This document shows, piece after piece, positions 8,895-20,682 of a DNA stretch of 20,682 nt. The notes beneath the pieces were generated by a model, which worked only from the letters and a program-made list of their open reading frames with translations, did no database searches and was not told the origin of the DNA. Made by a program: the position numbers and the translations under genes. Within the stretch, counting starts at the first letter, position 1, and every line of letters begins with the position of its first letter. Where the stretch lies: positions 1 to 20,682 of IMG/VR virus record IMGVR_UViG_3300044949_002300, one strand, 5' to 3'. The DNA is from a virus.

Positions 8895-9911
8895 ATGTCA
8901 ATAAAACTAAAGGATGCAGCAGAGTTTTTTAAGAAAGAACAGCATCAAATTGATGCATGGAATTGGCTTGAAGCTCAGCTGAAACCCGAGACCCTGGAAG
9001 AATTTGCAAGTAAATATCGAAATAAACCAAAGCCCAAAGAAGAAATATCTAATACGTGGGACGGTATATACGCGGCTGCTAAAAAAGCAGGTGCAAAATT
9101 CCCGGAATGCGTTTGTGCTCAGTGGGGACTCGAATCAGGATGGGGCAAGCATTTCTCTGGCACCTTCAACGCATTTGGTCTGAAGGGATCTGGTAGTGCT
9201 GTCAGCACCCAGGAGTTCATCAACGGTAAATGGATCACCATTACAGATAGCTTTATTGATTTTCCAGATCTTGAAACTTGCGTCTTCTATTTAGTGGACC
9301 GGTGGTACAAAGATTTTGGTCGCTTTAAAGGTGTCAACCGCGCCAAGACACGTAATGAGTGCGCTCAACTTTTAGTTGTTGAAAAATACGCTACAGATCC
9401 TGATTACAGCACCAAGCTCATCCAGATCATGGATCGTCAGCTTGGCACACCAGGAAACACTGAACAACCAAAAGAACCAGATAAGAAAACAGGTTTCAAT
9501 CCCTGGAGCCCCTTCACATTTAAAGTGACGCCAAACATTACGTATGGTGAGTTGACTCTTAACCAGGAAGCACGACGTTTTACCAAGCAATATCAATGTG
9601 ATACAGCATTAGAGATCTGTCAGTTCCTTGAAAAAGTACGCAGTGCATTCGGTAATAGACCTCTAATTATTACTAGTGCATCAAGACCAGAACCAATTAA
9701 TAAACGAGTTGGTGGTGCTAAGAACAGTGAGCATACCTACGATGCACCATCGAAAGGCGCAATTGACTTCTATATTGAGGGTGCCAGCGTTTACGCTGTG
9801 CAAGAATGGTGTGATAAATCTTGGCCATACTCAATTGGTTATGGAGCACCAAAAGGATTTATCCACTGCGGAATTCGTCAAGGAAGGCCAAAAGCAAGGT
9901 GGACATACTAA
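8895..9911 (+). CDS. Bifunctional endolysin: glucosaminidase plus M15 peptidase
   Basis: This 338-residue protein is a lysis enzyme acting on peptidoglycan. Residues about 55-187 form a FlgJ/LytD-type glucosaminidase domain (CAQWGLESGWGKHFSGTFN, with the likely catalytic Glu near 79). It would cut the glycan backbone. A linker rich in Gln, Pro and Lys leads to an M15A-type zinc peptidase domain at about 209-338, which would cut stem peptides. Candidate zinc ligands are His280 (SEHTYD), Asp291 (GAIDF) and His324 (GFIHCG). Their spacing is wider than in the shortest M15 motifs. No signal peptide or SAR segment is seen, so export would need a holin. Its 3' end overlaps an HNH gene by 71 bases. 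Domain calls are confident; specificity is inferred. Confidence 0.9.
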   Translation: MSIKLKDAAEFFKKEQHQIDAWNWLEAQLKPETLEEFASKYRNKPKPKEEISNTWDGIYAAAKKAGAKFPECVCAQWGLESGWGKHFSGTFNAFGLKGSGSAVSTQEFINGKWITITDSFIDFPDLETCVFYLVDRWYKDFGRFKGVNRAKTRNECAQLLVVEKYATDPDYSTKLIQIMDRQLGTPGNTEQPKEPDKKTGFNPWSPFTFKVTPNITYGELTLNQEARRFTKQYQCDTALEICQFLEKVRSAFGNRPLIITSASRPEPINKRVGGAKNSEHTYDAPSKGAIDFYIEGASVYAVQEWCDKSWPYSIGYGAPKGFIHCGIRQGRPKARWTY

Positions 9912-10425
9912 AAAACACAAGCCGCTTCCCCCGCTTAGTTTATTAAAGGATTTTTTTGAAGTTTCAAAAACTTCTGAAAGTGGATTGGTTTGGAGAATAA
10001 AAAGAAAGGGTAGAAATCCAGGAGACACTGCCGGCACAAAGAGACCGAGCGGCCACTGGCAGGTAAAAATAAATAATCAACTTTATGGTGTACATAGGAT
10101 TATTTTTTACTTAGAAACCGGTTGCAATCCAGGTAATTATATTGTCGATCATATCAAGGGCACAGATTATCCTTTAGAATTAAGAATGGCAACAAGCAGC
10201 CAAAACCGTTGTAACAGTAAATCTTCTCAAACAAAAAATAGAACTAGCAGATACAAAGGGGTCTATTGGTCAAGCAAAGACAAAAGATGGGGAACCTCCA
10301 TAATGATTAATGGAAAAAGAATTTATAAAACTTATTTAAAAACAGAAACAGAAGCAGCTTTAAAATACAACGAATTAGCCATTAAACATCACGGGGAATT
10401 TGCTGTTTTAAACATTATTGAATAA
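9841..10425 (+). CDS. HNH homing endonuclease with AP2-like DNA-binding domain
   Basis: This 194-residue protein has an HNH core (about 40-120: SGLVWRIKRKGRNPGDTAG, YGVHRIIFYLETG, IVDHIKGTD) followed by an AP2-like domain (about 133-190: SRYKGVYWSSKDKRWG and ALKYNELAIKHHGEFAVLN). These are free-standing phage homing endonucleases. The canonical DNR stretch after DHI is shortened (DHIKGTDYPLELRMAT), so the second catalytic residue is unclear. ATG at 9841 is the only plausible start: no ATG, GTG or TTG lies between it and the core domain. It puts the first 71 bases inside the endolysin gene in the +1 frame, with no Shine-Dalgarno sequence. Expression may be weak or coupled to endolysin translation. 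Confidence 0.85.
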   Translation: MEHQKDLSTAEFVKEGQKQGGHTKKHKPLPPLSLLKDFFEVSKTSESGLVWRIKRKGRNPGDTAGTKRPSGHWQVKINNQLYGVHRIIFYLETGCNPGNYIVDHIKGTDYPLELRMATSSQNRCNSKSSQTKNRTSRYKGVYWSSKDKRWGTSIMINGKRIYKTYLKTETEAALKYNELAIKHHGEFAVLNIIE

Positions 10426-11718: not shown

Positions 11719-12381
11719 CTACTCTTTGGGTATTTCTATATTTTCTGGGAATGTTATCGACTGTTTAAAGATACTATTGAATGCAGAAGGGTTCTCTTTA
11801 TTTCTTCCGTAGGCCATCAGCTTTTCTGCCTTGAACTCCAATTCAAAAGGATTTATTGTTTCAGGATAATACAATTTATTCCAGCTTGAAATCAGGTGGA
11901 GAGGGTTGCCGCATCTTGGATTACCACACAGATGCGTCACTACCATGCTGCCGATATCACCCCAAGCACAATTGTAAATTGCTTTATGAAAGCTCATGTT
12001 CTCTGCCTTTTGGTGGCTATAGGAAGAGCGATAGGACGGCATGCAGATGCGCTTAGGCGTGTAAGGGCCAGGTGATTCGATTGTCCAGCATGAATCCATA
12101 TCCCCCCTGGTGACACGCGACCACAGCTTTTGATATCTCGCTTTGTATTCAATGTTTAAATAATTGATATCAAATCCACAAAGATTTGATTGGATCTTAT
12201 GGACACAGTGGTAGCACCAGTGTTTTTCTTTATCGCGGATGTGATGGTTATGAGGACAGACAAAGCCACGGTAGTAGCCACTGTCATCAAGCTGCTCGTC
12301 GGAAAGTTCATCGATACCAGCAACAAACCGGAAGTCTGTTGCCTTGGCAAGCTTGCGTTCTGAACGGTGAATATTTGCCAT
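11719..12381 (-). CDS. HNH endonuclease with N-terminal zinc-binding motif
   Basis: This 220-residue protein carries a Cys/His cluster at about residues 42-61 (FVCPHNHHIRDKEKHWCYHC), probably a zinc finger. At about 148-165 lies an HNH_3-type core: VTHLCGNPRCGNPLHLISS, the usual HxCxNPxCxNPxHL signature. Between them, CWTIESPGPYTPKR is like the strand that precedes HNH cores in phage endonucleases. A DNA-nicking or homing role is likely; a packaging-associated HNH nuclease is an alternative, but no terminase is in view. It starts four bases after the stop of another HNH-type gene, so the two probably share a transcript. Catalytic His and Asn positions look intact. Confidence 0.75.
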   Translation of the reverse strand: MANIHRSERKLAKATDFRFVAGIDELSDEQLDDSGYYRGFVCPHNHHIRDKEKHWCYHCVHKIQSNLCGFDINYLNIEYKARYQKLWSRVTRGDMDSCWTIESPGPYTPKRICMPSYRSSYSHQKAENMSFHKAIYNCAWGDIGSMVVTHLCGNPRCGNPLHLISSWNKLYYPETINPFELEFKAEKLMAYGRNKENPSAFNSIFKQSITFPENIEIPKE

Positions 12382-12385
12382 TTTA

Positions 12386-12751
12386 CTAACAGGAATAAGA
12401 AATAACTTTCTTTTCCGCAGGGAATGCCACCGGTTTTTTGTTCGTACGTTTTGTCGGTACCAGCTTCATTCGGTTGTCTTTATTGACATTATTTTTTTCA
12501 TGAATGATGTCGATGTGCAAAGGATCCTCTTCGTTTTGCAAGAAATAAACCAGGCGGTGCGCCAGGTAAACACTGTTGTCGATGCAGACCATATAGAAGC
12601 CAGTCACCTTGTTCATGCGTCCAGCCTGAGTCCCAGCTTTGTTACAGGCCTTGTCGACCACCCACTCCAATCCGCTGGGGTAGCGGTCCGACAGTTTGAT
12701 CAGTTCTTGGACGCGCCAGAGGGGCGGCATTTCCTTTCGCTTGCTTGGCAT
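12386..12751 (-). CDS. HNH-type endonuclease with altered catalytic motif
   Basis: This 121-residue protein has the strand layout of phage HNH homing endonucleases: YPSGLEWVVDKACNKAGTQAG, then VYLAHRLVYFLQNEEDP, then DIIHEKNNVNKDNRMKLV. Where the family normally has DHI(N/D)G, this protein has D-I-I-H, so the general-base His is replaced by Ile with a His two residues later. It may be a decayed or altered nuclease, or a DNA-binding protein. It lacks an AP2 or other C-terminal DNA-binding domain, ending soon after the core, so it is short. It heads a run of two HNH-like genes. The start is the first ATG; no strong Shine-Dalgarno is seen. Confidence 0.65.
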   Translation of the reverse strand: MPSKRKEMPPLWRVQELIKLSDRYPSGLEWVVDKACNKAGTQAGRMNKVTGFYMVCIDNSVYLAHRLVYFLQNEEDPLHIDIIHEKNNVNKDNRMKLVPTKRTNKKPVAFPAEKKVISYSC

Positions 12752-13089: not shown

Positions 13090-13431
13090 CTATTTCCGGC
13101 CGTAGTCGTCGCTCAACCGAGTGATGTCCTCTTCGTACAGGTGGGTACCCCGCTGGACCTCAATCAGCACGAGTTCCGAATCACCGGCCTCCAGGCGATG
13201 GATGGCGCCAACGGGAATAAAGGCAGTGGTACCGGGGGACGCAAGGATTTCTGCATCTTCCACGGTGACCACACCCGTACCCGCCACCACTACCCAATGC
13301 TCAGAGCGGTGCTCATGCTTCTGGAGACTCAGTCTCGCTTGAGGCTTAACTGAGATTCGTTTGACTTTGTACGTCGGCCCCGAACAGATCGTTTCAAACG
13401 ATCCCCAGGGCCTTTCTTCCGCATAGGTCAT
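13090..13431 (-). CDS. Cupin, type II mannose-6-phosphate isomerase-like (ManC C-terminal domain)
   Basis: This 113-residue single-domain cupin matches the C-terminal isomerase domain of ManC/AlgA-type enzymes. It reads ERPWGSFETI, YKVKRISVKP, RLSLQKHEHRSEHWVVV, then FIPVGAIHRLE and LIEVQRGTHLYEEDI. The metal site is expected at Gln, the His pair of QKHEH, and the His of IHRLE. Such enzymes interconvert fructose-6-phosphate and mannose-6-phosphate, feeding GDP-mannose sugar synthesis; stand-alone copies may instead act on another sugar phosphate. The start overlaps the glycosyltransferase stop by four bases (ATGA), so the two are coupled and probably act together on a surface or DNA sugar. 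A strong terminator follows. The family is confident; the substrate is inferred. Confidence 0.85.
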   Translation of the reverse strand: MTYAEERPWGSFETICSGPTYKVKRISVKPQARLSLQKHEHRSEHWVVVAGTGVVTVEDAEILASPGTTAFIPVGAIHRLEAGDSELVLIEVQRGTHLYEEDITRLSDDYGRK

Positions 13432-14696
13432 GCTTTGGCCCCTGCCAGTTCCTTGGTTTCAGCTTTCTTTTGCTTTTTGCGCTTGCTGGTACGGATCTGA
13501 GGCTCTTCCTTGGCGGCGAGCACTTCCTTGAATACGTCGTCAAAATCAGAAGCGACGGTGTCCCAGTTGAAGCAAGGATCCGTGACACGGTCATAGCAAG
13601 CCTGGGCCGCTTGATCGAGCTTGCCACGATCTTCGTAAAGCTCATTCAGGATGTCGGCCAGATGATTGTCATCCGGGCAGGGCATGATGCGACCGAAGTT
13701 GGTGTCGACATCAGCGTGGAGGTTACGAATCAAAGGGCCATAGCCTTCAAAGATTTCCTTACACGAGGTGTGATCAGGTACAACCTGTGCGACGCGGCAG
13801 GCTGCATGCTCGAAGTTCACAAGGCCCCAACCTTCACCTTTACAGGTGTTGACGCCAACATCTGCAACGTTATAGATCGTGTTTAGCAGTTCGACACCAA
13901 CGGAAGGACCGTTGGCGCCTGGCGTCGTCATGATGATGCGATTGTTCGGATCTAGTCCTTGACGCCGCATTTCACGATCAAATAGGGGCATGACATCCCA
14001 GCCCTGGTCCTTTTGACCCATGTGCAAGTACAGCTTGGCGTTTGGTTTGCCGACTGCAAACTTTGCAAATGCCGAGATCGTGATATCGATTCGTTTGCGG
14101 AATTGATTGCGGTTACCGTTGAAAACAATGAAGTCATCAGGGCTTAAGTTCAGCTCCTTACGGCATTCATCCCGATCCCGTGGAAAGAACTGACCTTCGG
14201 TAACACCATGGGGGATGACCCAGATTGGCTTCTCTACCCCGGCTTTAATCGTTTCTTCTGCACCGAATTTGGTGTAGCAGATCGCTGCATCCCATTCGTT
14301 CATGGTATCGGTGAGGCAACCGTACCACCCATAGGAATCCATGGGGTAGTAGCCCACGAATTTAAAACCGATCTGATCACGCAGATCTTTAATCTGAGCC
14401 CACTGGTTATTGATGATCCAACAATCGTTGATCGTAAAGATCACATCGGGACGTACCCGTTCGGTGATTTCACGAATCCGAGCCTCACCAAAGGGTTGGT
14501 TCTGGTACATGTTGGAGGCAGGGTACATGAAGTACTCCTGCTGCAACGGTGTGTAGTCACCGTGCCAGTTGCAACCCAACACATGGATTTCATATTTCTC
14601 TTTCAGTCGGCTCAGCACATTTTCGGTAACACGCGCAAAGCCAGTGGTTGCAACAATGTCACCTACCCACAAAAGTTTGGGTTTATTTTCAGTCAT
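13428..14696 (-). CDS. GT-B fold glycosyltransferase (GT4-like)
   Basis: This 422-residue protein has a GT-B layout. The N-terminal Rossmann half starts KLLWVGDIVATTGFARVTENVL, the usual strand plus Gly-rich loop. The C-terminal half begins near residue 200 (FIVFNGNRNQFRKRID, the GR.-x-x-K(R) strand for the donor phosphate). The E-x7-E donor motif appears as GEGWGLVNFE near 285-294. The last 35 residues are a basic, Lys-rich tail, probably disordered. It would move a sugar from a nucleotide donor to an unknown acceptor: host surface glycan, phage DNA base or virion protein. It is coupled to the cupin gene by ATGA and lies downstream of a speD remnant. Confidence 0.85.
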   Translation of the reverse strand: MTENKPKLLWVGDIVATTGFARVTENVLSRLKEKYEIHVLGCNWHGDYTPLQQEYFMYPASNMYQNQPFGEARIREITERVRPDVIFTINDCWIINNQWAQIKDLRDQIGFKFVGYYPMDSYGWYGCLTDTMNEWDAAICYTKFGAEETIKAGVEKPIWVIPHGVTEGQFFPRDRDECRKELNLSPDDFIVFNGNRNQFRKRIDITISAFAKFAVGKPNAKLYLHMGQKDQGWDVMPLFDREMRRQGLDPNNRIIMTTPGANGPSVGVELLNTIYNVADVGVNTCKGEGWGLVNFEHAACRVAQVVPDHTSCKEIFEGYGPLIRNLHADVDTNFGRIMPCPDDNHLADILNELYEDRGKLDQAAQACYDRVTDPCFNWDTVASDFDDVFKEVLAAKEEPQIRTSKRKKQKKAETKELAGAKA

Positions 14697-14729: not shown

Positions 14730-14873
14730 TTATTGAGGAGTTATAGAACGCACCAGTTCTTTTTCCTCAGATTGTTTTGACTTGAGTTTGTTTTTCAAGA
14801 ATTCGGCAGCCTTATGCGTATTCGTTGTATCTCCACAGGTATATAGATCGATGGCGGCATAGCCAATCTCAGG
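14730..14873 (-). pseudogene. speD: C-terminal remnant of a second speD copy
   Basis: Read leftward from 14873, 47 codons to TAA at 14730-14732 give PEIGYAAIDLYTCG, then THKAAEFLKNKLK and a Lys/Glu tail. This aligns with residues 70-117 of the intact SpeD encoded at 15438-15791. The first 31 positions show 25 identities by hand count, while many codons differ silently, so the copies have long diverged. Homology stops at the codon for Trp69. In-frame TAA lies two codons upstream, so the piece cannot be translated on its own. It lacks the self-cleavage Ser and catalytic His but keeps the Cys of the YTCG motif. The HNH gene at 14909 sits between it and the intact gene. Confidence 0.85.
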
Positions 14874-14908
14874 CCTTTATGTATTAAACTTTAAAAAAAT
14901 GTATTAAC

Positions 14909-15451
14909 ATGGCCAAGCCAAAACTATCTGCCGTTTCTTTAGATGAGATCAAAACAAGAAAGGGTAGAATGTCCAATCATCCTTTGTATGACACATGGCG
15001 TGGAATCATAGAACGCTGCTGTAAGCCAAATGCGCCTGCATATTTACGTTACGGAGCAAAAGGCATAAAAGTATACGCCCTTTGGCTAGACAAATCAAGA
15101 CATCCAGATCACAAAAGATGGAGCAAAGGGTTTTGTTTATTCCTTGAATATGTAGAAGAATTTTTAATAGATCGACCAGAAGGCTGCTCCTTGGATCGAA
15201 TTAATTCAAGCCTTGGCTATGAACCTGGAAATTTAAGGTGGGCAAATGCATCGCTACAAAAAAAGAATCAAAAAATCAAAAACAAAACGGGTTACAAGTA
15301 TGTGTACTCAATTTCCGGTTCTTCCAAGTGGCAGGCAGAATACAAGTTTCAGGATAAGCGGGTTTATGTAGGTTCTTTTTCTACAAAAGAAGAAGCTTAC
15401 CTCAATGTTCTCGCCCATAGGCTTGAAACAATTTGGCCTAGGAATCTCTAA
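14909..15451 (+). CDS. HNH homing endonuclease with AP2-like domain, inserted at speD
   Basis: This 180-residue protein has the phage HNH layout LYDTWRGIIERCC (residues 26-38), YGAKGIKVYALW (48-59), then RPEGCSLDRINSSLGYEPGN (89-108) with DR in place of DH, as is normal in this subfamily. An AP2-like DNA-binding domain follows at about 126-172 (TGYKYVYSISGSSKWQAEYK and VGSFSTKEEAYLNVLAH). It is on + among - genes. Its last 14 bases overlap the 3' end of speD in convergent orientation. The AT-rich stretch before its ATG (direct repeat ATGTATTAA) may hold its own promoter, and no Shine-Dalgarno is clear. With the speD remnant on its other side, it looks like the mobile part of an insertion into speD. 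Confidence 0.85.
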   Translation: MAKPKLSAVSLDEIKTRKGRMSNHPLYDTWRGIIERCCKPNAPAYLRYGAKGIKVYALWLDKSRHPDHKRWSKGFCLFLEYVEEFLIDRPEGCSLDRINSSLGYEPGNLRWANASLQKKNQKIKNKTGYKYVYSISGSSKWQAEYKFQDKRVYVGSFSTKEEAYLNVLAHRLETIWPRNL

Positions 15452-15791
15452 AAACCTTTCTTTGGATTTCTTTTTGTTCGTGGATTTCAGCTTTTAGCTT
15501 GCTTTTTAAAAACTCAGCCGCTTTGTGTGTCTGTGTTTTTTCACCGCACGTATAGAGATCAATAGCTGCGTAACCCTCGCAGGGCCATGTGTGGATAGAT
15601 GCGTGCGATTCCGCAAGCAATGCCAGTAATGTCACGCCTTGCGGCTGAAATTTCTCACCAAAAATCCGCAGGATCTTAGCGCCCGCCATATTGAGCGCCA
15701 CCTCAAGCAACCGCTGCAGCTCTTCGTAATCATCAAGAAGAGCTTGATCGCAGTCATAGAGATCAAGGATGAGGTGACGCCCGTTGCTCAC
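15438..15791 (-). CDS. speD: S-adenosylmethionine decarboxylase proenzyme
   Basis: This 117-residue class 1 AdoMet decarboxylase proenzyme starts GRHLILDLYDCD. It has the active-site stretch AESHASIHTWP: self-cleavage is expected between Glu61 and Ser62, making the pyruvoyl cofactor. His67 and Cys82 (YTCG) match the catalytic His and Cys of the bacterial enzyme. The product makes decarboxylated AdoMet for spermidine synthesis; in cyanophages speD is a known auxiliary metabolic gene. Start is GTG, overlapping the primase stop by four bases (GTGA). The stop lies inside the convergent HNH gene. Residues 71-72 are Cys-Glu, whereas the remnant copy has the more usual Pro-Glu at that place. No spermidine synthase is in the window. 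Confidence 0.92.
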   Translation of the reverse strand: MSNGRHLILDLYDCDQALLDDYEELQRLLEVALNMAGAKILRIFGEKFQPQGVTLLALLAESHASIHTWPCEGYAAIDLYTCGEKTQTHKAAEFLKSKLKAEIHEQKEIQRKVFRDS

Positions 15792-18415
15792 AGTTCGTTT
15801 GCTACCTCTTCCATTGTCGCACTAGAAGTTTTGTCTAGCACGTCACCATAGAACGTACGCCATTCTTCTTTATTTAAACCGACTTCGACCAGTGACGGAT
15901 ACTGCTCGTACTTGGGGCTTGATGCCCGGAGTGCGATGTTGACAACCCGCATGCCACGACTGTTCTTGAATTGATAGACATTCAATTTCAGCTGGTGAAC
16001 GCATACGTCCATTAGGAGGGATTCAAACCGGCTGCGACCAAGGATGTTGCTGTTTGAACCACGTGAGAATTCGCAGTAGCTGGCATACAACCACTTATCC
16101 CAGTTGATGTACAGGTTGGAGACACCACCCGGCGCATGTTTTGCGAGGCCAACAGGACTAGAAATACCTGGGTCAAAAACCACACAATGCTGCATCCAAT
16201 CAAGGATCTGGTTGGATTTAAGGATTTGTTCACGGTGATGTTTAGCAAAGAAGTCGACTTTGTCATTGGTCTCCATCAGGTATTCACGCATCTCAGCTTC
16301 TGACATATCCAAGACCCAGTTCACAAGCCCTGGCAGCAGAGCAGCAAATTCACCGAAGGGATGACCGTGATCATCCATATCAATTAAGGTGCGTTGCTCA
16401 GCGGAACTACCCGTGAATGGTTGATCGAATGGAATGGTGAGACGACGACGTGCCAAACCAGATGTTGGGTCTGTGGTTTGGATTGGTTCGTTGGCCGTGA
16501 TCATGACCAGGCCATTGAATTTAAATGGTTTCTGGCTACCAGCTTGGAACTTGCGCTCATTACGAATCAGGTCACGACCAGTGATTGCTTTCAATACGGA
16601 AACAGATCCGCCGTAACGCTCAACATCATTGAAGAGCAATAGCTTTTTCTTGTAGAGGTTTGCGGTTTCAAAACGGTTCTTCTCGAGGTGCTCTAGCGAG
16701 GAGATCATGGCGTTGTCATCACCGACCAATGCATGCGCGAGGTTTGAGTAGGTGGACTTACCAGATTTACCGGGGCCGACAATCTCAACAAACTTCTGGA
16801 TGTCCGAGTGACTGAGAAGGACTGCCCGCAGCCAAGCCCGTAGCACCTGGACCCGACCCCAGCTGTTGTTTTGTGTGGACTTCAGCCACTTAATGATTGG
16901 TTCACATCCGGCATAAGGGTCGTATTCGTACGGCAGCTGTTGCGTAATGTGTAGCTCCCGATCAAAAGGAATGAGCTCCCGAGTTTCAACCTTCAAGATG
17001 CCATTGGTAAAGAGCAGATATTCATTACCTTCATACCAATCATCAAAAATAGTTGAAATCCTCAATTGCTCCATAAGATCTGAGATCAGATTCATGGAGT
17101 AACCGCTGTGCAGCAGACCTTCTTTAATTGAATCAAGCCGGCTCTTGATATCACCTTTTACTTCGTACTCAGATAGCTGAGACCAAAGACCCTTGCGGTG
17201 ATATTGATAGATGAAAAATGCGCCATGCGATTGGCTGTAACGCAGATTGCCCTGGTAATCCTGCAGAAGGATTGTGGCAATGACATCAGACGAGGGATTG
17301 CGAGTCTTCTGATTTTTACCTTGCTTTTCACCAAAGGATGAACGTTTCTTCCAGTTGTTTCCACCCAACTGTTCAACAATATCTTGCTTCTCTTCTTTTG
17401 TTATCCCGAGATCCTCTTCTAATTCAGTCAACAGTTTGGCTACGTGATCAAGCATGGCATCATCTACATTCATTGCTTTGTGATTTTCTGATGGCTTCCA
17501 GCCGTTCTCTTTGGCAACGTGCACAAGCGAGCCGATACCACGACCACCACCTTTCGAGAAGGAACGCCACCGCCTGTGGCATTCACCTTCCCTGTATTTA
17601 TCGGATTGACGAGACCATTCATCCCATTGATCAAGCAGCGATTCATCCAGTGAATGAAGCGACTGACCGACCATGATCCAGATGTCATAGTCATCTGTTG
17701 CTTCCGGCGGCATGCCCCACATGGCTTCCAATGCCAGTTGCATGTCACGTTCAATGTCAACCTCTGCGTTGATTGCAAAGGAAGGACCAACGATACGAGT
17801 TGTTTCTTTTGCAGGAACACCCTGCTTGACATTCTTTTGAACGATGCAGTTTAGTAACCACTCCGGAAATTCAGGCAGCTCCTGGATCCACTCAAACCCT
17901 TGATCTGGAGCAGTGAAATAGCCTTCAGTTTCAGGGTGCAGACCCATTAGAACGCCCTGATGACGTTTCCAAAGGATCTCAAGTTTTTCTTTTGTTCCTT
18001 CTGCGTGCCAGGTGTATTTGTTCCTTACAAATTGCTTGTGCTGATCCCTAGAGAGGCGGTATAGTTTCCGCTCACGACCCTCTTTACCACTGAGAATAGT
18101 CAGTGTTGACGGCAGAGCTTCTGCAAAAGGCAGTTCCGATAGATCTTCAATCAGTTTGTAGACGGTGGGACCATCGACATCAACCCATACCAAGCCATAG
18201 GGATGGTTGTAGACAGGGCCGCCGAGCAGACCAACAGCTTTGCAGCGTCCGTTCAGTATTTCATTTTCGATTTCATGCGGGCTGAACGGTTTGTTTTGCC
18301 AGCCTGCGACGTAAGGATCTTTGTTTGGACCGAGTGGCGTCAATGGCCAGTCGATTGGGATGTAATCAAGCTTGATTTCACCGGGCTTGAGCGCTTGCTG
18401 ATTGGTATTAGTCAT
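15788..18415 (-). CDS. Prim-pol/SF3 helicase replication protein
   Basis: This 875-residue fusion begins with an archaeo-eukaryotic-type primase-polymerase domain (about 10-200) with VDVDG at 78-82 (catalytic Asp79/Asp81) and LSGKEGRERKLYRL near 108-121. A PriCT-2-like helical part spans about 224-308 (IWIMVGQSL, DQWDEWSRQSDKY, GIGSLVHVAKENGW). A charged linker follows. The C-terminal D5/P4-type superfamily 3 helicase has Walker A GPGKSGKST at 547-555, Walker B LLLFNDVE at 592-599, sensor MITANEP at 638-644 and an Arg cluster SGLARRR at 652-657. It would prime and unwind phage DNA at the fork. Its ATG overlaps the upstream small gene by eight bases, and its stop overlaps speD. All key motifs look intact. 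Confidence 0.92.
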   Translation of the reverse strand: MTNTNQQALKPGEIKLDYIPIDWPLTPLGPNKDPYVAGWQNKPFSPHEIENEILNGRCKAVGLLGGPVYNHPYGLVWVDVDGPTVYKLIEDLSELPFAEALPSTLTILSGKEGRERKLYRLSRDQHKQFVRNKYTWHAEGTKEKLEILWKRHQGVLMGLHPETEGYFTAPDQGFEWIQELPEFPEWLLNCIVQKNVKQGVPAKETTRIVGPSFAINAEVDIERDMQLALEAMWGMPPEATDDYDIWIMVGQSLHSLDESLLDQWDEWSRQSDKYREGECHRRWRSFSKGGGRGIGSLVHVAKENGWKPSENHKAMNVDDAMLDHVAKLLTELEEDLGITKEEKQDIVEQLGGNNWKKRSSFGEKQGKNQKTRNPSSDVIATILLQDYQGNLRYSQSHGAFFIYQYHRKGLWSQLSEYEVKGDIKSRLDSIKEGLLHSGYSMNLISDLMEQLRISTIFDDWYEGNEYLLFTNGILKVETRELIPFDRELHITQQLPYEYDPYAGCEPIIKWLKSTQNNSWGRVQVLRAWLRAVLLSHSDIQKFVEIVGPGKSGKSTYSNLAHALVGDDNAMISSLEHLEKNRFETANLYKKKLLLFNDVERYGGSVSVLKAITGRDLIRNERKFQAGSQKPFKFNGLVMITANEPIQTTDPTSGLARRRLTIPFDQPFTGSSAEQRTLIDMDDHGHPFGEFAALLPGLVNWVLDMSEAEMREYLMETNDKVDFFAKHHREQILKSNQILDWMQHCVVFDPGISSPVGLAKHAPGGVSNLYINWDKWLYASYCEFSRGSNSNILGRSRFESLLMDVCVHQLKLNVYQFKNSRGMRVVNIALRASSPKYEQYPSLVEVGLNKEEWRTFYGDVLDKTSSATMEEVANEL

Positions 18416-19570: not shown

Positions 19571-19585
19571 CTAAATTAGATCTGG
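19571..19585 (-). repeat. Copy A of duplicated 3' end (endonuclease gene)
   Basis: CTAAATTAGATCTGG (+ strand) encodes PDLI-stop at the end of the endonuclease VII-like gene. It matches 19968-19982 at 13 of 15 positions, and that copy encodes PDLI-stop at the end of the exonuclease gene. The two copies flank the inserted gene. Confidence 0.75.
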
Positions 19586-19987
19586 ATTAGGGTCTAATTT
19601 TTTTAAATAAACAATTAGACCCTCTAATTTTTTTATATCATCAGATACGTGGCCTAATGCTAAGTTGCATTGATGACAAAGCAAGCCACGTATTTTGTTT
19701 GTTTTATGGCAATGATCGATATAGAATCTTGTCCTACCCGGAGCCCCCGGTTTATTTGCTAAACAACCCGGATTAGCACAACAATTATTTTGCTTAGTTA
19801 ACATTCTTTTATATTCCTCATAATCCACCCCATATTTTCTTTTTACTCTTAGTTCATTTTGGCAAGTTTTACAGTAAGAACACAAGCTTTTTAAACCATT
19901 CTTTTTAATATATCCAGACCATCCAAAGCAGCTTGCATTTTTATTTTCTTCGCACCTCAAGCAAGTCTTAAATAAGATCTGGGTCAT
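19571..19987 (-). CDS. Endonuclease VII-like HNH endonuclease
   Basis: This 138-residue protein is of the recombination endonuclease VII type. It has a zinc-binding Cys cluster (CLRCEE near residue 9 and a second pair, CSYCKTC), then KYGVDYEEYKRMLTKQNNCC and the core FYIDHCHKTNKIRGLLCHQC followed by NLALGHVSDD. In phages this fold serves Holliday-junction cleavage or, in free-standing genes, homing. The ATG at 19985-19987 (MTQILFK) is chosen over an earlier in-frame ATG at 20026, because it starts the conserved part. It overlaps the exonuclease stop by 20 bases. Its own end repeats the exonuclease's last codons, a sign of insertion. Confidence 0.85.
   Translation of the reverse strand: MTQILFKTCLRCEENKNASCFGWSGYIKKNGLKSLCSYCKTCQNELRVKRKYGVDYEEYKRMLTKQNNCCANPGCLANKPGAPGRTRFYIDHCHKTNKIRGLLCHQCNLALGHVSDDIKKLEGLIVYLKKLDPNPDLI
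19589..19634 (+). terminator. Terminator for the basic-protein gene, inside the convergent gene
   Basis: An 11-base perfect inverted repeat (AGGGTCTAATT/AATTAGACCCT at 19589-19599 and 19613-19623, loop 13) is followed on + by CTAA and seven T (19628-19634). It lies 20 bases after the stop of the + gene. The same bases encode the last part (EGLIVYLKKLDP) of the endonuclease VII gene on the - strand. Confidence 0.7.
19968..19982 (-). repeat. Copy B of duplicated 3' end (exonuclease gene)
   Basis: TTAAATAAGATCTGG (+ strand) holds the exonuclease stop codon and the codons for PDLI. It is the partner of 19571-19585. The eight bases AGATCTGG are identical in both, and the matching codons are in the same frame. 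Confidence 0.75.
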
Positions 19988-20682
19988 AAACGCCACAGTT
20001 TTCGATTTGAGTATAATACTCAGCAACTATACAAAGCCAGTCTTCCCGTAAAGAATCGAGAAATCTGCGAGATATCTTAAATACCTGAGTACGAACAGGT
20101 GTTGATACAAGAATTGCAGCCTGTTGTACTTTCATGCCAAGTGTTTGTTCAATTGCTATGTCATAAGCAGCTAGTTGTTTACAAGTTTTTTTGAATTTGA
20201 GATGACCCCCGAGAAGATCACGCCATTCAGGCGAACCCTTCTCCAGGTCTTTAGGCCACTTGCGGCTATAGGGTTTGACGCTGGTCTTTAAGTCTGCGAG
20301 CGTCAGTTTGTTATTGGCAACAGCAATAATGTCAGGAGCGCCAGCCCAAGCACGACCTTCATCGTCGCAACCCCAGACACGAGCAACGTCGTCAGAACCA
20401 ATAGTGAAATCAAATTTGTCCAGAACGGGGGATTCTGCCCAAAGCACTTCTTGGAACTGATCCAAAATTGCTGGCATACCGGCCCAAAAGTCCGCATAGT
20501 CTTCTTTAATTTCTGGCTCTTTATTTCCTTTGAGATACTGCTCCATGCCGTAGTGGATGGCAGTTCCCCTTTCGGCGGCAGCTTCTTTGACACCTGGATT
20601 TGCTTTCGACCACATTTCAAGCTTCCGTTTATTTGCTTCGGAAGCTGTTTCGCTGATGATTGTGGTTACGGACGGCGCAGGT
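19968..20682 (-). CDS. RecB/Cas4-like PD-(D/E)XK exonuclease (5' end beyond window)
   Basis: The frame is open from the right edge of the window, so the start is missing; a Met at 20615 is internal. The visible 237 residues begin PAPSVTTIISETASEANK, the usual N-terminal motif of this family. Then come RGTAIHYGMEQYL, GAPDIIAV and LTLADLKTSVKP (the catalytic D...DxK), and KQLAAYDIAIEQ (the QxxxY motif). Phage proteins of this type are 5'-3' exonucleases used in DNA replication, recombination or breakdown of host DNA. It ends GVYDPDLI-stop, and the endonuclease VII gene begins within its last 20 bases. Family assignment is firm; the exact role is inferred. Confidence 0.88.
   Translation of the reverse strand, partial: PAPSVTTIISETASEANKRKLEMWSKANPGVKEAAAERGTAIHYGMEQYLKGNKEPEIKEDYADFWAGMPAILDQFQEVLWAESPVLDKFDFTIGSDDVARVWGCDDEGRAWAGAPDIIAVANNKLTLADLKTSVKPYSRKWPKDLEKGSPEWRDLLGGHLKFKKTCKQLAAYDIAIEQTLGMKVQQAAILVSTPVRTQVFKISRRFLDSLREDWLCIVAEYYTQIENCGVYDPDLI

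Follow-up and report, generated by a model that had tools for sequence, protein, structure and literature searches.

Introns, inteins, or split proteins are the usual explanation where a homing endonuclease strikes the coding core of an important gene. The phage enzymes treated in reviews lie between genes or divide a gene into two polypeptides, as mobE does in nrdA of Aeh1 and mobA in gene 60 of T4 (PMC2988022). In cyanophage S-PM2, the endonuclease F-CphI takes part in collaborative homing, its own allele being protected by a neighbouring intron (PMC6083498). In fungal mitochondria, mobile ORFs replace the C-terminus of the gene that they enter, as in atp6 of Allomyces and atp6, atp9, cox2, and nad3 of Glomus; there the native end is 91-98% identical in nucleotides to that of close relatives and the inserted end 64-81% (PMC3630166). 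A search of the open literature, with subscription papers outside its range, returned no description of a phage endonuclease that carries a replacement 3' end.

This article describes a unit of that kind in speD of the window, as the whole stretch of DNA analysed is called here, which is a complete viral contig record of 20,682 bases from a metagenome (IMG/VR). Like the fungal mobile ORFs, the unit joins an endonuclease ORF to a foreign in-frame C-terminus, with the native C-terminus lying downstream and matching close relatives; the fungal elements encode LAGLIDADG or GIY-YIG enzymes and are mitochondrial, whereas those considered here encode HNH and EndoVII enzymes and belong to phages, and the speD unit differs further in its convergent orientation, its altered target codons, and its spread over six phage lineages (PMC3630166). 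Since its HNH enzyme lies in a phage contig, the speD unit is taken to work like a mitochondrial mobile ORF and is not classed as one. The initial annotation of the window had likened it to integrative elements that restore tRNA ends; the fungal mobile ORF is the closer analogue (PMC3630166). The anatomy is known from these mitochondrial elements, and what is new here is its occurrence with other enzymes and in phages.

With the Seg and Mob genes of T4, the speD unit shares an intron-independent endonuclease gene beside an important gene and an optional presence in relatives, but it keeps one intact polypeptide by means of the new 3' end (PMC2988022). It resembles F-CphI, an EndoVII-type enzyme, in being a free-standing cyanophage endonuclease whose own allele is protected from cutting, although in the speD unit this protection would come from altered target codons and from the insertion itself (PMC6083498). 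The endonucleases of ICP1-like phages that combine HNH with a C-terminal AP2 domain are likely of the same broad enzyme class, the HNH match being strong and the AP2 match weak, and the accessible part of the account of them mentions no rescue 3' end (PMC10448857). Engineered home-and-rescue and Cleave-and-Rescue drives share only the logic of a nuclease coupled to a recoded, function-restoring target; they are synthetic CRISPR constructs in insects and have no kinship with the speD unit (PMC7968924, PMC7951863).

Organization of the speD Locus

The gene order primase, speD, glycosyltransferase in the window is that of freshwater phages related to Synechococcus phage S-EIVl, and the window phage is a freshwater cyanophage. 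The layout given in the initial annotation, with an intact speD, a convergent HNH gene, and a speD C-terminal piece that has no start of its own, was confirmed by profile matches (PF02675, PHROG 374) and by a self-tblastn search that recovered the C-terminal duplication at E=8e-16 (Table 1). The inserted unit occupies positions 14876-15584 and consists of the foreign speD 3' end and the convergent HNH-type endonuclease gene, placed after Trp69; the break had been located correctly, between the codons for Ser62/His67 and Cys82. The claimed count of 25 identical residues in 31 from Pro70 between the leftover piece and SpeD was also right, and an independent repeat search returned the same 711-nt spacing of the two C-terminal copies that had been reported between equivalent points.

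Within the unit, the 3' ends of the HNH gene and of speD overlap by 14 nt, and the foreign speD end has its target codons recoded to PCEG and finishes in the tail EIQRKVFRDS. The leftover speD end begins with the GG of the target and then runs from Pro70 to the stop (47 codons at 14873-14733, stop at 14732-14730), with the translation PEIGYAAIDLYTCGDTTNTHKAAEFLKNKLKSKQSEEKELVRSITPQ before the stop. It is separated from the glycosyltransferase gene by 33 nt, equal to the spacing in close empty-site relatives. Further HNH or HNH-like ORFs are present in the window at 9676-10425, 11719-12381, and 12386-12751, the first of which overlaps the 3' end of an endolysin-like gene.

Table 1. Features of the window that bear on the speD unit and on the second endonuclease gene near its end.
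Feature	Position	Strand	Match or comparison
Primase, marks left flank	15788..18415	-	upstream of speD in loci compared; ~90% aa identity in close relatives
Intact speD	15791-15438	-	PF02675 AdoMet_dc, E=1e-35
5' part of the resident speD, from GTG start through Trp69 (codons 1-69)	15585..15791	-	closest: HNH-less alleles L011/L005/L016, 87% nt
Foreign speD 3' end brought by the unit, from codon 70 through the stop	15438..15584	-	closest C-parts are HNH-linked alleles
HNH-type endonuclease gene, 180 aa, convergent to speD	14909..15451	+	PHROG 374 HNH endonuclease, E=1.3e-35
Unit right end, AGTTTA..CACA-like motif adjoining right half of target	14876..14908	.	kept in 6/6 occupied loci
Old resident speD 3' end, no start codon	14730..14875	-	90% nt to L005 C-part
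Glycosyltransferase, marks right flank	13428..14696	-	next gene after speD in most empty-site relatives
EndoVII-type endonuclease overlapping exonuclease 3' end	19571..20026	-	PF02945, E=5e-20
Exonuclease-like gene, 5' end off contig	19968..20681	-	PHROG 298; EndoVII target in relatives

The HNH protein of the window is 60-68% identical in amino acids to its five same-site homologues. Among the carriers, pN of the HNH genes is 0.19-0.28 with synonymous sites near saturation, and as judged from the sequences these genes are old and under purifying selection. The gene had been labelled HNH/AP2; the HNH half of the label stands on the PHROG 374 match, and the AP2 half on a weak Pfam match in 5 of the 6 homologues (best E=0.001). 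Pfam and NCBIfam did not place the HNH domain in these endonucleases, a PDB sequence search with the protein gave no match, and AlphaFold on the six sequences gave a poor model (pLDDT 52), so that the catalytic residues are not placed. The product is predicted to be a nuclease with a specific site in speD.

Occupied and Empty Alleles

A protein scan of IMG/VR yielded 58 related loci, and later scans brought the number of speD loci to 144, of which 93 are distinct. These comprise 6 distinct occupied and 87 distinct empty alleles at one fixed site. Carriers of this HNH protein are confined to six distinct contigs, namely the window, L002/L060, L010/L064, L061/L069, L062, and L063, and scanning viral contigs a second time for HNH proteins added no close carriers. 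In all six, the unit lies at the same codon and in the same orientation, with a length of 702-712 nt and a SpeD tail like KEIxRKV; at its right end, each has the motif AGTTTA..CACA followed by a GGCCTGA-like right half of the target. The unit had been predicted to recur in unrelated speD genes, and the five other carriers have N-terminal parts that are mutually unrelated.

Empty sites, likewise predicted, are present in close relatives of the window phage. In those with a primase about 90% identical, speD is followed by the glycosyltransferase gene, in nearly all after 33 nt, and neither an HNH gene nor a second speD C-terminus lies between the two in the close empty-site relatives. The protein sequence of the leftover piece in the window matches the C-terminus encoded by the single intact speD of these relatives at 85-95% identity, and the piece is therefore the old resident end. 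A comparable occupied and empty pair, L002 and L072, has 95% identity in the 300 nt upstream, 96.5% in the 2.4 kb downstream, and 70% in the speD C-part. Other genes occupy the gap between speD and the glycosyltransferase in L007, L021, L023, L025, L047, and L051, and this gap is an insertion hot spot.

Separate Histories of the Two Parts of speD

The three HNH-less alleles closest to the window by N-part have C-parts that are 80-90% identical in nucleotides to the leftover piece and only 58-61% to the intact C-part. The intact C-part is nearest to L002/L069, and the leftover to L005 (90%). When alleles are ranked by similarity to the intact C-part, the other five carriers stand at 1, 2, 3, 4, and 6 of 85; by N-part they stand at 24-60. 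The N-parts of other carriers are likewise closest to HNH-less alleles (L002 to L072, 96%; L010 to L043, 86%; L062 to L037, 86%; L063 to L110, 85%), L069 having no close empty relative, and for most carriers the closest C-parts are those of other carriers.

As the initial annotation had predicted, the intact C-part falls among HNH-linked alleles and the leftover among the relatives of the N-part. The N-part tree scatters the carriers over six places with six state changes and rejects a single clade (AU p=2e-7), whereas in the C-part tree they form one clade (SH-aLRT 97); without the first five codons, the C-part tree no longer has them as one clade and needs two changes, with one clade not rejected (p 0.44). 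Single branches are weak because the alignments are short, and the result is the contrast between the two trees. Empty sites, this contrast, and the same junction in six lineages support the annotated reading that an endonuclease unit would have entered speD and supplied a new 3' end, and confidence is high in the architecture, in its mobility, and in a foreign source for the speD 3' end. A one-off imprecise recombination, which had been offered as the alternative, is less likely, given that six lineages share the identical junction and that other genes have the same layout.

Leftover Ends and Target Codons

The old 3' end survives to different extents in the six carriers. L062 keeps its first 8 nt and last ~30 nt, the middle being deleted; L063 keeps the PEIG start together with the end; and in L002, L010, and L069, a few target bases remain. 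The old end thus seems to have been left behind in every carrier lineage and then lost, the window being a fresh case. Comparison of the aligned loci demonstrates, at the level of sequence, insertion at a fixed codon, in-frame replacement, an old end first kept and then decaying, and transfer from lineage to lineage.

Trp-Pro-Glu is found at the site in 82 of the 87 HNH-less alleles and in none of the six carriers. The PE of the target is changed in 6/6 carriers and 5/87 non-carriers (Fisher p 6e-7, a value that is overstated because the C-parts of the carriers share descent, so that six altered targets are not six independent events). In the carriers, PE[L/I/M/V]G is replaced by PCEG three times and by PCER, PCEK, and PQVG. 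An unaltered carried end would rebuild the cut site because that end starts where the right half of the target starts, and the altered codons appear to protect the carrier allele from recutting. Among HNH-less alleles, L003, L004, and L057 have PCEG and may be resistant or wholly or partly converted alleles, and two further ones have PQLG. In S-EIVl, a cultured relative, speD (L148, 3001-3335) is frameshifted at a point 5' of, and away from, the endonuclease target.

The Same Layout at Other Genes

The arrangement recurs with EndoVII-type enzymes. In the window, the EndoVII gene and the exonuclease-like gene that it overlaps both end in PDLI and a stop, and the exonuclease leftover is gone, except possibly for DPNPDLI at the EndoVII C-terminus. 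In L157 and L197, the exonuclease 3' end is present a second time, as 20 codons after EndoVII, and L189, with a different EndoVII, has a leftover of 62 codons; the exonuclease N-part of L189 is 92% identical to those of L167-L169, whose C-parts are 85-87% identical to the leftover and 67-68% to the new end.

When 80 stretches from 20 related phages were scanned for duplications, thyX was found with EndoVII, its leftover being 88-90% identical to relatives and its new end 66-68%; a fourth gene, in which 20 leftover codons are fused to EndoVII, is a less firm case. The many tail-gene repeats and paralogues among the hits were discarded. Contig 3300045740_000123 (L294, 4863-6880; L295, 4916-6122) contains an EndoVII unit at thyX, where the leftover spans 40 codons, and a second one at another gene, its leftover fused to the endonuclease C-terminus.

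Cultured phages provide near-identical occupied and empty genomes. Synechococcus phage S-B28 (L318, 1789-2970) has an EndoVII unit and 7B11-B (L328) an empty site; their nrdB genes are identical over 600 nt, after which S-B28 diverges in the final 75 nt of the gene. EndoVII comes next, then a leftover of 27 nt that agrees fully with the native end in 7B11-B (NVNLPQYA), and then 100% identity over ~800 nt, the flanks being ~99-100% identical. The same replaced-end layout is found at a cytosine methylase, with an EndoVII enzyme, when KpV2811/BUCT541 are compared with RSU-F4K5/VLCpiS13e; in the Klebsiella phages BUCT541 (L323) and KpV2811 (L332), the 45-nt methylase leftover is read in another frame as the EndoVII C-terminus. 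In a shuffle test, S-B28 scored 38 against a shuffle maximum of 38 and BUCT541 39 against 38, and since these scores lie only at the shuffle maximum, both cases rest on comparison with their empty relatives. No leftover above shuffled scores was found beside the EndoVII or HNH genes of phiYeO3-12, KLB7, S-RIP1, S-H68, PKM.Hi.22.6, the 7B11-B terminase region, S-CBS2, and IMM-002; given these eight cultured cases, the layout, though common, is not universal. At the nrdB 3' end of L335 (DSL-LC07) and L336 (S-SRP01) are endonucleases whose C-termini, KYA and a stop, resemble the QYA and stop of nrdB and are possibly fused leftovers.

Proposed Mechanism and Alternatives

The alleles are very probably explained by a free-standing homing endonuclease unit that enters the middle of a conserved gene at the site that it cuts, bringing with it a substitute for the downstream end. 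The speD unit appears to combine three traits of free-standing homing endonucleases, namely an enzyme of an endonuclease family, optional presence at a fixed site, and an own allele without an intact target. The HNH enzyme would cut an empty speD at the sequence encoding WPE[L/I/M/V]GY, and a genome with the unit would serve as template for repair of the break, resident speD providing the left homology and the old 3' end the right, the right-hand repair step being a proposal. As comparison of the loci shows, the product consists of the resident 5' part joined in frame to the foreign 3' end, the convergent HNH gene, and the old 3' end. The altered codons with which the carried end opens would keep the cut site from being recreated, and the old end, by then useless, decays or is deleted, as the other carriers show. 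Cleavage and repair from a carrier are proposed with moderate confidence.

Ordinary intronless homing with co-conversion, in which a diverged donor speD end merely travelled along and the leftover is one repair accident, is improbable. Free-standing homing is ordinarily described as involving co-transfer of flanking DNA and resistance conferred by the donor sequence (PMC12724721), and a few L002 codons 5' of Trp69 look co-converted; replacement homing would, however, remove the old end, whereas the right junction lies at the target in 6/6 carriers with traces of the leftover, and the exonuclease gene, thyX, nrdB, and the methylase have leftovers as well.

Tandem duplication of the speD 3' end, with the HNH gene inserted later between the copies, would account for two C-terminal copies flanking that gene and is very unlikely: the copies in the window are 58% identical and have different closest relatives, and two speD ends occur in 0/87 distinct HNH-less alleles. 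A duplication that preceded the HNH gene, which the initial annotation had named as the observation that would count against its reading, is contradicted, no HNH-less locus having two speD ends.

Joining codon 69 to the leftover in the window would give a full native SpeD, as expected if the leftover were exon 2 of a gene restored by a self-splicing intron. The leftovers of the other five carriers are deleted or degenerate, and splicing could therefore not yield SpeD there; the HNH gene is on the opposite strand, and no Rfam intron was matched, a weak test, since it also missed a phage in which the annotation joins a gene across an endonuclease. Splicing at speD is unlikely, to the point of deserving little weight. 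An assembly chimera, conceivable in that the window and most of its relatives are metagenomic contigs, is rejected as next to impossible, since six distinct contigs have the same junction and cultured phages that have near-identical empty relatives show this architecture in their genomes too.

Significance for Phage Biology

The homing unit in speD would solve without splicing the problem that introns and inteins solve, in that the host gene works after insertion into its core. It probably belongs to a widespread, nuclease-independent class of spliceless phage homing elements, with insertion in the core or 3' part of a gene, a recoded replacement downstream, and the old end left behind, and on the same reading this class arose with at least two enzyme families (HNH and EndoVII) and at least five targets (speD, the exonuclease gene, thyX, nrdB, and a cytosine methylase). 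The near-identical cultured pair S-B28 and 7B11-B, one occupied and one empty, makes homing directly testable. A further route by which a phage endonuclease brings its own gene end predicts self-protection by recoding, and it would explain mosaic 3' ends and orphan C-terminal fragments beside phage endonuclease genes. If true, it would be a natural counterpart of engineered home-and-rescue drives and a third way, beside introns and inteins, of harmlessly invading essential genes.
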